Shown here: piece after piece, positions 3,694 through 29,467 of the stretch | How positions within the stretch are numbered: the stretch's first letter is position 1 | Layout of the letters: every line of letters starts with the position of its first letter | From: Pseudooceanicola endophyticus | GTDB lineage: Bacteria > Pseudomonadota > Alphaproteobacteria > Rhodobacterales > Rhodobacteraceae | NCBI RefSeq assembly: GCF_018760365.1 | Contig: NZ_JAHIAB010000001.1 | Span: 265,813-329,812 of the forward strand | DNA length: 64,000 nucleotides | Direction of reading: 5' to 3' | Notes under the pieces: generated by a model | What the model was told of the DNA's origin: nothing | The model's input: only the letters and a program-made list of their open reading frames with translations | Databases searched by the model: none | Made by a program: the position numbers and the translations under genes

Positions 3694-4731
3694 ATGACCG
3701 ATACCCTCATCATTCGCCGCCCCGATGACTGGCACCTGCATCTGCGCGACGGCGCGATGCTGGAGGCCGTCCTGCCCGAAACCGCGCGCCATTTCGCCCG
3801 CGCGATCGTGATGCCGAACCTCGTGCCGCCGGTGGTGACCGGCGCCGATGCCGCAGCCTATCGCGACCGCATCCTGAAGGCCCTGCCCGAAGGCGGAACC
3901 TTCGAGCCGCTGATGACGCTCTACCTGACCGAGGACACGGACCCCGAGGATGTGGCAACAGCAGCCGCCTCCGGCCTCGTCCGGGCGGTCAAGCTTTACC
4001 CGGCCGGCGCCACCACCAATTCCCAGTCCGGGGTGCGCGATTTCCGCAAGGTGATCCCGGTGCTGGAAAAGATGGCCGAAATCGGCCTGCCGCTGTGCAC
4101 CCACGGCGAGGTCACCACCCCGGAGGTCGACATCTTCGACCGCGAGGCGGTCTTCATCGACACCGTGCTGGATCCGCTGCGCAAGGAGATCCCCGAGCTG
4201 CGCGTGGTGATGGAGCACATCACCACCTCCGATGCCGTCGACTACATCCGCGCCGCGCAGGCAAACCTTGCCGCGACGATCACCACGCACCACCTGGTGA
4301 TCAACCGCAACCACATCCTCGTGGGCGGGATCAAGCCGCATTACTACTGCCTGCCGGTGGCGAAACGCGCCACCCATCAGCAGGCGCTGCGCAAGGCCGC
4401 GACCAGCGGCGATGCCCGCTTCTTCCTCGGGACCGACAGCGCCCCCCACGTGGACCCGGCCAAGGAATGCGGCTGCGGCTGTGCCGGCTGCTTCACCGCC
4501 ACCAACACCATGGCGATCCTGGCCCATGTCTTCGAGGAGGAAGGCGCGCTCGACCGGCTCGAGAGCTTCACCTCGCTGCACGGTCCCGCCTACTACCGCC
4601 TGCCGGTCAACGAGGAAACGCTGACCCTGGTGCGCGGCCCGAAAGACTACCCCGCCAAGATCCTGGGCAAGGACGGCCCCGTCACCGTCTTCGACCCGGG
4701 CTTCGTGCCGGCCTGGCACGTGGCCGACTGA
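3694..4731 (+). CDS. pyrC: Dihydroorotase, class II (E. coli type)
   Basis: PyrC closes N-carbamoyl-L-aspartate to dihydroorotate in pyrimidine synthesis, in the cytoplasm. The 345 residues match the usual length of about 345-350 for the E. coli type. The binuclear zinc site is complete: H14 and H16 (HLHLR), the carbamylated lysine K100 in AVKLYPAG, H137 (CTHGE), H175 (MEHIT) and the catalytic D248 in LGTDSAPH. The start is immediately downstream of a 10-bp hairpin and has no clear Shine-Dalgarno sequence. pyrE follows after a repeat element of about 110 bp, so the two pyrimidine genes form a functional pair. Confidence 0.96.
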
Positions 4732-4735
4732 CCCA

Positions 4736-4847
4736 TTTTCTTGTTCCAAATACCTCCGCCGGAGGCTGGGACGCGCAGCGCGCGGCCCAATCCCCGGGCC
4801 AGAGGCCCGGGAACGCCTCCGGCGGGCATATTTGGAGAAAGATGAAA
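4736..4847 (+). repeat. Two-hairpin dispersed repeat, copy A (full length)
   Basis: The element starts 5 bp after the pyrC stop. Its outer arms are inverted: CAAATACCTCCGCCGGAGG (4747-4765) against CCTCCGGCGGGCATATTTG (4816-4834), with TTTCTTGTTC outside the left arm and GAGAAAGATGAAA outside the right arm. Inside are hairpin 1, CGC-GCA-GCG (4772-4780), and hairpin 2, CCCGGGCC-AGA-GGCCCGGG (4793-4811). Copies B, C and D2 share this plan. It may act as a transcript 3'-end or processing structure between pyrC and pyrE. Confidence 0.75.
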
Positions 4848-4869: not shown

Positions 4870-5547
4870 ATGATCCCCAGCGCCTACCCGAGCAAGGAAG
4901 AAATCGCGCGCCTGACCGCCGGCATGCTGCTGGACATCAAGGCCGTGCATTTCAATGCCGACGAACCCTTCACGCTTGCTTCCGGCCTGCCCTCGCCGAC
5001 CTATATCGACTGCCGCAAGCTGATCTCTTTCCCGCGCATCCGCTCGACGCTGATGGATTTCCTGGCCTGCACCGTGATGCGCAACGCCGGTCTTGAGGCC
5101 TTCGACAACATCGCCGGCGGCGAGACGGCGGGCATTCCCTTCGCCGCCCTGGTGGCCGAGCGCATGGCGCTGCCGATGACCTATGTGCGCAAGAAGCCCA
5201 AGGGCTATGGCCGCAACGCCCGCATCGAGGGTGCGATGAGCGAGGGCCAGCGCGTCCTGCTGGTCGAGGATCTGACCACCGACGGCGGCTCCAAGCTGTC
5301 CTTCGTCGATGCGATCCGTGACACCGGCGCGGAATGCGGCCACACGGCGGTGATCTTCTTCTACGACATCTTCGAAGGCACCCGCGAGAACCTGCGCGAG
5401 CATGGTGTCGAGCTGCACCACCTGTGCACCTGGTGGGACGTGCTGGCCGTCGCCCGCGAGCGTCAGGCCTTCAGCGCGGCGACCCTGGACGAGGTCGAGA
5501 AATTCCTGAACGCGCCGCGCGCCTGGCAGGACGCCCGCAAGGGCTGA
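4870..5547 (+). CDS. pyrE: Orotate phosphoribosyltransferase
   Basis: PyrE joins orotate to PRPP to make orotidine 5'-phosphate, the step after dihydroorotate oxidation. The 225-residue protein carries the PRPP-binding motif [14 protein letters not shown] around residues 129-142 and a mobile catalytic loop with [16 protein letters not shown] upstream of it; YIDCRKLI near residue 41 also fits the family. A GAGGA ribosome site precedes the ATG. It is separated from pyrC by repeat copy A, so either read-through or an internal promoter must drive it. Two hairpins follow the stop. Confidence 0.95.
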
Positions 5548-11621: not shown

Positions 11622-12398
11622 ATGTCCAAAGTCACTGCGGACCATCCCCTCCGCGCCATCGCCACCAGCACCCTGCAACTGGCAAGCCTTGCCTTTCTTG
11701 CCCTCACCGCCGCCGCGCTTGGCACGGCCAGCCTGCTGGCCGCCTTCGGCCTGCTGCCCTGGCCCGAACTGACGCTGGGCTACGGCGGCGAAAGCTACCA
11801 GGCCGGCATGGCCGCGCAGCTGGTATTGACCGCCCTGGCCTTTGCGCTCTGCGCCTACATCCCCGCCAATGGCCGGATCCTGGCACTGGAAACCTCGCAC
11901 CGACGCTTCTCGATCTCGATGCGCGACGTGCAGCGCGCCTACATGGCCGCCCATGCCGCCGACCGGGCCGGCCTGTTCCATGTCGCCGAACAATATGACG
12001 AGGTGCGCGAGCGGCTGCTCTGGCTGCGCAGCCATCCCGACCTTGGCGCCCTCGAACCCGGCATCCTCGAGGCCGCCGCGCAGATGTCGGAGGTTTCCCA
12101 AGACCTTGCCCATGTCTATTCGGACGAGGCCATGGCCCGCGCCCAGGCCTTCCTGGCCGAGCGCCAGCAGGAACTGAGCAGCTTCGAACAGCGCCTGGCC
12201 GAGGCCAAGCGCCGCACGGAGGACCTGCGCCGCTACACCGAGGCGGTCGAGATGGACGAAAGCGTCGCCCGCGCCCAGATCAGACGCCTGCGCGACGAAC
12301 TGGCCGAGATCCTGCCCGAACTGGCAGAACGCGGTCTGGTGACCTCGGTCGATCCGCGCCTGCACCGGGCCAGCGCGAACCGGGTGCCGGCCGAATAG
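11622..12398 (+). CDS. Membrane-anchored coiled-coil protein of unknown function
   Basis: The protein has 258 residues. Two N-terminal membrane segments (about 20-45 and 62-82) are followed by a cytoplasmic or periplasmic helical region rich in charged residues, with long coiled-coil stretches from about 165 to 245. An AGGAG ribosome site lies before the ATG. Related rhodobacterial proteins are sometimes called DNA repair proteins, but I see no nuclease, helicase or DNA-binding motif, so that name has no support here. It sits alone between the MlaEF operon and radA. Confidence 0.7.
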   Translation: MSKVTADHPLRAIATSTLQLASLAFLALTAAALGTASLLAAFGLLPWPELTLGYGGESYQAGMAAQLVLTALAFALCAYIPANGRILALETSHRRFSISMRDVQRAYMAAHAADRAGLFHVAEQYDEVRERLLWLRSHPDLGALEPGILEAAAQMSEVSQDLAHVYSDEAMARAQAFLAERQQELSSFEQRLAEAKRRTEDLRRYTEAVEMDESVARAQIRRLRDELAEILPELAERGLVTSVDPRLHRASANRVPAE

Positions 12399-12400
12399 GC

Positions 12401-12458
12401 TTTCATCTTTCCGCAAATATGGCGGGGGAGTCGCGCAGCGACGGGGGCAGAGCCCCCC
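12401..12458 (+). repeat. Two-hairpin dispersed repeat, copy B
   Basis: The element starts 3 bp after the stop codon of the coiled-coil gene. It begins TTTCATCTTTCCGCAAATAT and continues with GGGGGAG, then hairpin 1, TCGC-GCA-GCGA (12431-12441), and hairpin 2, CGGGGGC-AGA-GCCCCCCG (12442-12459). Its left end is the reverse complement of the right end of copy A. It lies about 70 bp before radA. Confidence 0.75.
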
Positions 12459-21357: not shown

Positions 21358-21425
21358 GGGGGCGCTGCCCCCTCTTGCGCCTGCGGCGCAATTCACCCCC
21401 GGGATATTTCCGGCCAGATGATGAA
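21358..21425 (-). repeat. Two-hairpin dispersed repeat, copy C (reverse orientation)
   Basis: On the plus strand the order is GGGGGC-GCT-GCCCCC (21358-21372), TTGCGCC-TGC-GGCGCAA (21375-21391), then CACCCCCGGGATATTTCC and CCAGATGATGAA. Read on the minus strand it has the same plan as copy B: AT-rich end, GGGGG, a stem with a GCA loop, and a stem with an AGC loop. It begins 14 bp after the stop of the NlpD-like gene. Confidence 0.7.
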
Positions 21426-21454: not shown

Positions 21455-21480
21455 AAAAAGCGCCCCGCGGGGCGCTTTTT
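21455..21480. terminator. Bidirectional intrinsic terminator
   Basis: AAAAAGCGCCCCG and its exact reverse complement form a 26-bp perfect palindrome with A- and T-runs at the ends, so it can stop transcription from both sides. It lies between the convergent NlpD-like gene and the DUF815 ATPase gene. Confidence 0.88.
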
Positions 21481-28262: not shown

Positions 28263-29306
28263 ATGCACAAGGGCACAGACAAGGGCACAGACATCGGCAA
28301 AGACATGGCCATGGGCCCGGGTCCGACCGCGGCGCCGCCGGCGACCGCCGTCGCCGTGCTGCCCGCCCCGGCGCTCGAGGTCGTCCATGGCGTCAACGAG
28401 GGGGACATCCTGTCCTTCGCGGCCGAGCTTGTGCCCGACGACATCTATCACCGGGCCGAAGGCGTGCGCCCGCTGCGGCTGATGGTGCGGGCAGAGGCGT
28501 CGGGCCTGCTGCGGCTGGCCGAGGGATCGGACCGGGGCCGGCCCGGGGCGCGGCTGCTGCTGGACAGCCTGCTGACCTTCATGACCCCCGATGCCGCCAT
28601 GGCAGAGGTGCTGGTGCTGGTCGAGCTTGATCCGCTCGGCAATGTCGCGGATCTCCATGCCCTGCCGCTGGGCGACCTGCCGCCGGACACCGACCTGCGG
28701 CTGGTGGGGATCGACACAGAGACGGCGGCACGGCGCTTTGCCCAGCTCGGCTGCGTCTCCTTCGCCCGGGGCACCCGGATCACCCTGGCCTCCGGGGCTC
28801 AGCGCCCGATCGAGGCGCTGCGCCCGGGCGACCGGGTCCTGACCCGCGATACCGGGCCGCAGGCGGTGCGCTGGATCGGCCACAGCCTGCACCGCGCCAC
28901 CGGGGCCATGGCCCCGGTGCTGATCCGGGCCGGTGTCCTGGCCAATGCCGGCGACCTGCTGCTCTCCCCCGACCACCGGCTGTTCTTCTACCAGCGCGAG
29001 GACCGCCTGGGCGTCGGTCGCCGGGCGCTGCTGGTCCGCGCCCGCCACCTGGTCGACGGCGAGCGGGTGATCCGGGCCGAGGGCGGCTACGTGGAATATT
29101 ACCAGCTGCTCTTCGACCGCCACCAGATCATCTACGCAGAGGGGATCGCGGCGGAATCGCTGCTGCTCGACCACCGCAACCGCGCCGCCCTGCCCAAGGG
29201 GCTGGCCGATCTGCCCGGTCATGATCCCACTCTGCCGCCCCCCTACGAACTCAAGCGCGAGGACCTGAAACGCCCGGGCGCACTGGACCTGCTCGCCCGC
29301 CCCTGA
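28263..29306 (+). CDS. Hint-domain (hedgehog/intein-like) protein
   Basis: The ATG at 28263 follows GAGGGA and gives 347 residues; a GTG 14 codons upstream is possible. The first 150 residues are a beta-rich domain with no recognised family. A Hint domain begins at Cys164 (CVSFARGTRITLASG), continues with PIEALRPGDRVLT and carries SPDHRLFF, the histidine block used in N-S acyl shift. No second splice junction or C-extein is seen, so cleavage rather than splicing is possible. Such proteins are frequent in Rhodobacterales and their role is not known. The leader of the protein has a repeated KGTD motif. Confidence 0.8.
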   Translation: MHKGTDKGTDIGKDMAMGPGPTAAPPATAVAVLPAPALEVVHGVNEGDILSFAAELVPDDIYHRAEGVRPLRLMVRAEASGLLRLAEGSDRGRPGARLLLDSLLTFMTPDAAMAEVLVLVELDPLGNVADLHALPLGDLPPDTDLRLVGIDTETAARRFAQLGCVSFARGTRITLASGAQRPIEALRPGDRVLTRDTGPQAVRWIGHSLHRATGAMAPVLIRAGVLANAGDLLLSPDHRLFFYQREDRLGVGRRALLVRARHLVDGERVIRAEGGYVEYYQLLFDRHQIIYAEGIAAESLLLDHRNRAALPKGLADLPGHDPTLPPPYELKREDLKRPGALDLLARP

Positions 29307-29364: not shown

Positions 29365-29392
29365 ATGCATATTTTCGGAAAGATGAAACTGG
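29365..29392 (+). repeat. Dispersed repeat, isolated right end (D1)
   Basis: GCATATTTTCGGAAAGATGAAA matches the right end of copy A, without hairpins on its left. It lies 17 bp before the left end of copy D2. Confidence 0.55.
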
Positions 29393-29409
29393 CCGCCCGC
29401 CCCTGTCAC

Positions 29410-29467
29410 TTTCTTGTTCCAAATACCTCGGGGGAGCAGGTCGCAGACCTGCGGGGGCAGAGCCCCC
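29410..29467 (+). repeat. Two-hairpin dispersed repeat, copy D2
   Basis: The element starts TTTCTTGTTCCAAATACC, as in copy A, then CGGGGGAG. Hairpin 1 is GCAGGTC-GCA-GACCTGC (29436-29452) and hairpin 2 is GGGGGC-AGA-GCCCCC (29453-29467). Hairpin 1 differs in sequence from copies A, B and C but keeps pairing and the GCA loop. Confidence 0.75.

Follow-up and report, generated by a model that had tools for sequence, protein, structure and literature searches.

The RIME and ABC elements of Rhizobium are mosaic palindromic intergenic elements of Alphaproteobacteria, and to our knowledge no guide RNA has been reported for them. In TnpB systems the guide of the omega RNA is preceded on its 5′ side by a scaffold, and the target has a short motif at its 5′ side. 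Repetitive extragenic palindromic (REP) sequences and REPINs with their RAYT transposases, as described by Bertels and Rainey (2011) in passages of PMC3116915, are short palindromic extragenic repeats, many in each genome, that occur in inverted pairs and several types, with a master locus flanked by them and co-evolution of repeat type and master gene. IS110 insertion sequences encode, with their recombinase, a bridge RNA with target- and donor-binding loops, and some of their sites lie in REP elements (passages of PMC11208160). In TIGR-Tas systems, dual-spacer guides lie in a tandem array and are accompanied by a Nop-domain protein (passages of PMC12045711). Here we describe a family of hairpin repeats in a 64,000-nt stretch of Pseudooceanicola endophyticus DNA (contig NZ_JAHIAB010000001.1; the whole stretch is called the window), each repeat beginning with a short identity tag. 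What is new is a small RNA gene, beside or between copies of the tag, with a guide complementary to it. On balance we lean towards the view, drawn from sequence comparison, that this is a REP-like family in which a guide RNA targets the identity tag; the comparisons suggest that an RNA, in place of a transposase protein, may tell the cell which repeats belong together.

In plan the system resembles REPIN/RAYT, with many extragenic palindromic repeats, inverted pairs, several types, a repeat-flanked master locus and co-evolution with that master. It falls outside that family on the transposase: the master locus is an RNA gene and not a Y1 transposase, specificity apparently lies in pairing of an 11-nt guide, and the tag is followed by a gap of two bases and then AAATA. 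The Y1 transposase family PF01797 gave no match at E ≤ 1 in the genome from which the window comes (the source genome), while the control matched in 10 of 14 genomes. Like the IS110 bridge RNA, the RNA appears noncoding and its guide matches short DNA sites; unlike it, there is one guide and no recombinase was seen next door, DEDD recombinases being absent from the scanned flanking proteins (9 at 6 loci and 10 at 7 loci) and from annotated plasmid neighbours, a search of flanks only. RNA-guided recognition by short guides would be shared with TIGR-Tas and TnpB. In contrast to TIGR-Tas there was no array, no dual spacer and no adjoining Tas gene; each locus had one guide, and the scanned flanking proteins included no Nop-domain protein. 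No TnpB gene overlapped or adjoined the RNA among scanned and annotated neighbours, again flanks only.

Rfam gave no match in the window and none at gathering score for loci L190 and L179; up to E=1, loci L313, L278, L328, L331 and L334 gave three weak matches below gathering score, none at the RNA. Searches of open-access literature (subscription papers, bioRxiv and supplements lay outside them) listed no description of the repeats or the RNA. The P. denitrificans sRNA (small RNA) 'Intergenic 134' was considered and set aside: a passage of PMC5107571 places it at a nearby coordinate, identity could not be shown, and the Streptomyces homologues reported there make it doubtful.

The family unit consisted of a pyrimidine-rich tag of 10–12 nt, two free bases, AAATA and then GC-rich hairpins. 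AAATA was followed either by a GGGGG box with two hairpins or by a short CGCCGGAGGC module. Three tags were found in the source genome, H1 (CATTTTCTTGTT), H2 (TTTCATCTTTCC) and H3 (TCATCTGGCC), and the letters that follow AAATA differed from tag to tag. In a sample of 826 kb, about a sixth of the genome (C1:1-450000, with 188 bases as N, and contig C34), 105 heads (a tag with its AAATA) were counted, and the gap between tag and AAATA was two bases in 104 of them (the finder allowed 0–5). What a preliminary description of the window had called an AT-rich end is more exactly one of the three tags followed by two free bases. Genome-wide, the H1/H2 head pattern had 366 matches at ≤3 mismatches vs 11 with the reversed pattern, and CAAATA-N(0-12)-GGGGG had 87 vs 2, some places being doubly listed where G runs are long. 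The window repeats belong to a family of hundreds of copies in this genome.

The two-hairpin form was parsed in 52 of the 105 heads; the second loop was AGA in 30 and AGC in 20 of these, and the first-stem loop was GCA in 31. The earlier observation that the first stem varies yet pairs held up well beyond chance: 38 unique first stems averaged 6.3 bp, vs 3.0 (maximum 3.7) after halves were swapped between copies. Those stem changes had also been taken as a sign of selection on structure, for which changes among paralogous copies are insufficient alone, since matched arms could also result from template switching in a quasi-palindrome.

The RNA gene was noticed by comparing two syntenic congeners, G248 and G250 (aligned blocks mostly 89–96% identical): in one head-to-head pair the tags at both ends had changed, together with a tag-like word lying between them, which is preceded by a conserved core, GCGGTACAGGCNNNNNNGCCGATGACCGC. 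The gene comprises a 29-nt hairpin core, an 11-nt guide and then a GC hairpin, and it adjoins one tag unit or sits between two inverted units. At ≤3 mismatches every congener but G244 had the core (21 of 22; reversed pattern, no match), as did 259 of 292 Rhodobacterales genomes, representing 106 of 112 genera; the reversed pattern matched in 6 of these genomes, and counts at this threshold include some single chance matches. Among 55 distinct core sequences the two stems were paired in 99% of cells and six of nine pairs had changed on both sides, a level of pairing that 0 of 500 shuffles reached on any of five measures, while slid structures paired at ≤55%. A GC hairpin followed the guide in 57 of 57 loci by a lax test. 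The core hairpin was present in the predicted folds of all five examples (L292, L255, L254, L313 and L314), three of which folded clearly better than shuffles, the source-genome H2 RNA weakly so (z −1.4) and its H3 RNA no better. In L292 the guide was predicted to be free; in the other four, part or all of it was predicted to pair inside the RNA. Both source-genome RNAs lie outside the window (Table 1), which is why the preliminary description lacked the guide–tag link.

Two minor features of the RNA loci were seen. L259, L270, L272, L284 and L294 formed by eye a subfamily with a guide like GAAAGGTGAAAG, left flanks that resemble each other and a more extended structure downstream, perhaps one ancient locus. 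Upstream of the core, 34 of the 57 loci had a TTAAC word, usually at -27/-28, which could be a promoter or regulator site; CtrA boxes resemble this word.

Of 56 listed RNA loci, 47 had a guide complementary to the left tag and 38 one complementary to the right, with both sides matched in 35 (score ≥9.5 of 11, wobble counted half, misses included), and swapped guides gave on either side a mean of 2.5 and a maximum of 7 matches. The 56 loci were the 60 fetched (30 per search) minus the coding-like L268 and L271 and two near-duplicates. The matched pairs held 107 letter differences when no wobble credit was given, of which 92 were guide G vs tag-complement A, so that pairing was kept; guide position 6 held 57 of them, and there was usually one G·U/G·T wobble near position 5–6.

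Such local agreement would also be expected from a REP/MITE-like repeat (MITE, miniature inverted-repeat transposable element) moved by some transposase, with the RNA as a passenger and the guide–tag match as a cis stem copied with the tag. With a hairpin between them, guide and right tag could form one long stem, as predicted in L254; the source-genome RNAs are predicted to fold the guide onto other RNA parts, in a quasi-palindrome one arm can serve as template for the other, and most head-to-head pairs (11 of 13, spaced 15–25 nt) look like short derivatives. This explanation is nevertheless unlikely, as the left tag was matched but the right was not in 12 of the 56 listed loci, the distance to the right tag was variable, tags remote from all known RNA loci show the relation as well, and no Y1 transposase was found in the source genome, where the genome-wide search covered that transposase family alone. 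The cis stem may apply to part of the loci.

Among the heads listed away from RNA genes in nine species, 96 of 121 had a matching guide within their own genome, vs a mean of 9.1 and a maximum of 23 with swapped guide sets. This test took nine of the ten genomes with heads listed (G259, with two listed heads, was omitted) and dropped four RNA-adjacent heads. The source genome (G000) entered it with 9 of its 32 listed heads, one adjoining the H3 RNA, and scored 0 of 9; only the H2 guide was known then. With both guides, and away from the C1 RNA, its heads were matched at a score ≥9 of 11 in 41 of 41 cases for H2, 35 of 35 for H3 and 1 of 27 for H1, vs a mean of 6.7 and a maximum of 45 of the 103 heads with letter-shuffled guides. 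The H2 and H3 heads were collected by tag, and this comparison therefore tests the guides, which were found through the core.

Guide and tags were also found to change together between species when orthologous loci of G248 and G250 were aligned. At a first locus the left tag, guide and right tag had all switched in the same way; at a second, the guide and right tag had switched and the left tag was constant; at another site the outer hairpin was kept while the tag and first stem were replaced. One form of the repeat core (AAATAYCYCCGCCGGAGGC) occurred in 17 of 22 congeners, the reversed pattern having no match, and among the ten congeners with places listed the tags varied between species, from one to about four per genome. 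Over Rhodobacterales an H1/H2-like pattern was present in 38 of 244 genomes (reversed pattern, no match), and in wider genome contigs the tag pattern gave 19 loci, of which those beyond Roseovarius and Phaeobacter look like chance.

The position of the repeats was examined with gene calls from an in-house script, element length being approximated for the stop-distance count. Of 104 placed heads, 48 lay in convergent gaps, 45 in tandem gaps, 8 in divergent gaps and 3 inside called genes; heads were present in 37 convergent gaps (77 such gaps measure ≥40 bp), 34 tandem ones (279) and 6 divergent ones (125). Of 92 heads beside a stop codon, 41 had an edge ≤15 nt from it, and in tandem gaps the upstream stop was nearer than the downstream start for 34 of 44 heads. 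A link of the copies to gene ends, proposed earlier from the window, is borne out by these counts, and the comparison with REP sequences was fair: the copies are repetitive and palindromic, 101 of 104 heads lie outside called genes, and most are at gene 3′ ends. A single head was present in 55 of 76 occupied gaps; two-head gaps were head-to-head in 13 of 18, and 11 of these 13 were spaced 15–25 nt. In 17 plasmid records a similar element matched where no feature is annotated, an observation of little weight, two of the records being unannotated and three opened ones holding 2–4 features in total.

A location at 3′ ends is what intrinsic terminators or stabilisers of mRNA 3′ ends, with no link to a guide, would show, as the preliminary description had proposed. 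We rejected this very improbable reading on random orientation and the lack of T runs. In tandem gaps 22 heads were forward and 23 reverse (11:12 in single-head gaps), and reverse tags were as intact as forward ones (22 each; mean mismatches 0.23 vs 0.36), which also tells against any one-way role in mRNA 3′ ends; none of the four window copies had a T run after its hairpins, copy A lay between co-directional genes, and copy C stood beside a separate canonical hairpin with a T run.

A regulatory RNA remains a serious rival, if a rather doubtful one: an Hfq-type trans-acting sRNA whose seed pairs with tags in many mRNA 3′ untranslated regions, the repeats being its dispersed targets and the hairpins behind the tag protecting or exposing the RNA end. 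The folded core, guide and GC hairpin look sRNA-like, and a T-rich stretch (≥4 T in the next 8 bases) followed the hairpin in 23 of 57 loci; G·U-tolerant pairing fits RNA–RNA duplexes, and forward tags often start <20 nt past a stop codon. On the other hand, the random orientation and equal intactness of reverse copies reveal no preference for sense sites, the RNA core and GC boxes co-occur on plasmids of another class, and regulation alone would hardly account for tags switching at the two ends of a single locus. The random orientation relative to genes favours DNA over transcripts as the probable pairing partner.

Beyond Rhodobacterales, the core occurred at 0–1 mismatches in 6 of 237 other Alphaproteobacteria sampled, and at ≤2 mismatches the reversed pattern was found in 3 genomes. 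The strict core had no match in viral contigs (the loose core, 32 contigs), and phage records gave one weak core match. The RNA core was found on plasmids of Rhizobiales and Legionella, that of L. longbeachae being identical to the query at 26 of 26 aligned bases, and several loci beyond the order shared by eye the AAATATCCC-GGGG module with an AGA/AGC-type hairpin. The plasmid loci with the core (L328 and L334 from Legionella, L329 and L330 from Rhizobiales, and L331 from Cereibacter sphaeroides) come from two proteobacterial classes, and several of the plasmids are typed as conjugative. Guide matching outside the order was assessed at 14 loci, comprising 10 of 22 places listed and four plasmid loci; coding-like places with two mismatches, places of the own family and the near-duplicate L390 were omitted. 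The guide was matched at ≥10.5 of 12 in five of the 14, all five with TATTT upstream next to the site, and swapped guides gave a mean of 0.27 and a maximum of 2. The RNA neighbours there included genes for TraN/TraF (F-type transfer), MobA/MobL relaxase, Rep3 replication and rve transposase, which may reflect only plasmid backbones, and no family was common to all neighbours among the scanned and annotated sets given above.

The RNA gene, its guide, the agreement with the tags and their joint change are seen from comparison of genomes. From this, the following mechanism can be proposed. The RNA, together with a protein, would base-pair to tags beside TATTT/AAATA, two bases away, and recognition would work like a guide plus an adjacent motif. 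It would keep the tags uniform and let copies spread or be rewritten, as is supposed for RAYT transposases acting on REPINs, and copies would be kept at gene 3′ ends as the places of least harm. In its full form we offer this tentatively, as one possibility: an RNA-guided mobile-repeat system without an enzyme gene of its own, in which an RNA of ~100 nt would direct a host or shared protein to 11–16 nt tags by TATTT/AAATA and thereby spread, rewrite or mark hundreds of intergenic repeats, guide and tags switching together, as a nucleic-acid-only REPIN/RAYT analogue that would also travel on conjugative plasmids.

Several observations weigh against an RNA-guided process. No protein partner was found, the 9 scanned flanking proteins at 6 loci being ordinary genes, and transcription of the RNA gene is a prediction from its sequence. 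Neither a target-site duplication nor a clean site of insertion could be demonstrated; in the few head-to-head pairs viewed by eye, the two free bases were unequal. The predicted folds of both source-genome RNAs pair the guide inside the RNA, and the guide of L254 is predicted to pair with the tag behind its own terminator. A covariance search of the 46-contig source genome gave no RNA for H1 (27 of 103 heads), which may be an orphan family, may have a diverged RNA or may have its RNA in an assembly gap. In the nine species 25 of the 121 listed heads were unexplained, and the explained heads held 12 pair-breaking transitions vs 78 wobble-compatible differences; outside the order 9 of the 14 loci fell below the cut-off. 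The pyrimidine-rich tags make weak matches easy, as seen from the one shuffled guide pair that reached 45 of 103 heads.

RAYT explains the spread of bacterial short palindromic repeats only where a RAYT is present. A guide RNA matching the repeat tag, its core occurring in most sampled Rhodobacterales, offers an answer that can be put to a direct test in a major order of marine and soil bacteria; the process it hints at is RNA-guided, and the repeat tags of a genome would be predictable from a short RNA.

The repeat copies of the window, their neighbours and the two source-genome RNAs are listed in Table 1.

Table 1. Repeat copies and adjoining features in the window (window positions), and the two guide RNA genes elsewhere in the source genome (contig positions)
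Feature	Position	Strand	Description
Gene before copy A	3694-4731		Amidohydrolase (PF01979), pyrC-like by position
Copy A, left half	4734..4766	+	Tag H1 (4734-4745), free CC, AAATA (4748-4752), module CCTCCGCCGGAGGC
Copy A, right half	4815..4847	-	H2 reversed (4847-4836, one mismatch), free bases, AAATA, module with GCCGGAGGC
Gene after copy A	4870-5547		Phosphoribosyltransferase (PF00156), pyrE-like; right half of copy A lies upstream
Gene before copy B	11622-12398		Called gene
Copy B	12401..12457	+	H2, free GC, AAATA, GGGGGAG, stem TCGC-GCA-GCGA, hairpin GGGGGC-AGA-GCCCCC
Copy C	21358..21421	-	H3 (21421-21412), free GG, AAATA, GGGGG box, GCA-loop stem, AGC-loop hairpin
Terminator adjoining copy C	21455-21480		Canonical bidirectional A-run/hairpin/T-run, in the same convergent gap
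Gene before the fifth half-copy and copy D	28305-29306		Hint-domain protein (PF13403); ends upstream of both
Fifth half-copy	29370..29388	-	H2, free GA, AAATA; head-to-head with copy D, 18-nt spacer
Copy D	29407..29467	+	H1 (one mismatch), free CC, AAATA, GGGGGAG, stem CAGGTC-GCA-GACCTG, hairpin GGGGGC-AGA-GCCCCC
RNA L313	C12:206877-206917		Guide for H2; from covariance search
RNA L314	C1:388145-388185		Guide for H3, between two H3 heads; from covariance search

All four hairpin-repeat copies reported earlier were present, together with a fifth half-copy beside copy D. They had been described as sharing one plan, which does not extend to copy A: this is an H1 half facing an H2 half, with the CGCCGGAGGC module and without a GGGGG box. 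CAAATA with GGGGGAG had 2 matches in the window vs 0.03 expected, and the tag patterns at ≤3 mismatches had 3 and 2 vs 0.03 and 0.02. The hairpin GGGGGCAGAGCCCCC alone was not significant in the window, its 3 matches at ≤2 mismatches being reached by 14 of 100 shuffles. By the present gene calls copies A and B begin 2 nt, copy C 13 nt and copy D 100 nt past a stop codon, in agreement with the earlier statement that three begin within 15 bp of one.

Two of these sites could be followed into relatives. In the pyrC–pyrE gap of 21 genomes (the source genome included), the element was one- or two-sided with differing tags and was absent in three (by eye); in most two-sided copies one and the same tag stood inverted at the two ends, unlike copy A with its two different tags. 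Copy C is flanked by convergent LysM/M23 and DUF815 genes, and in the congener G248 the RNA cassette L255 lies between genes of the same pair of families.
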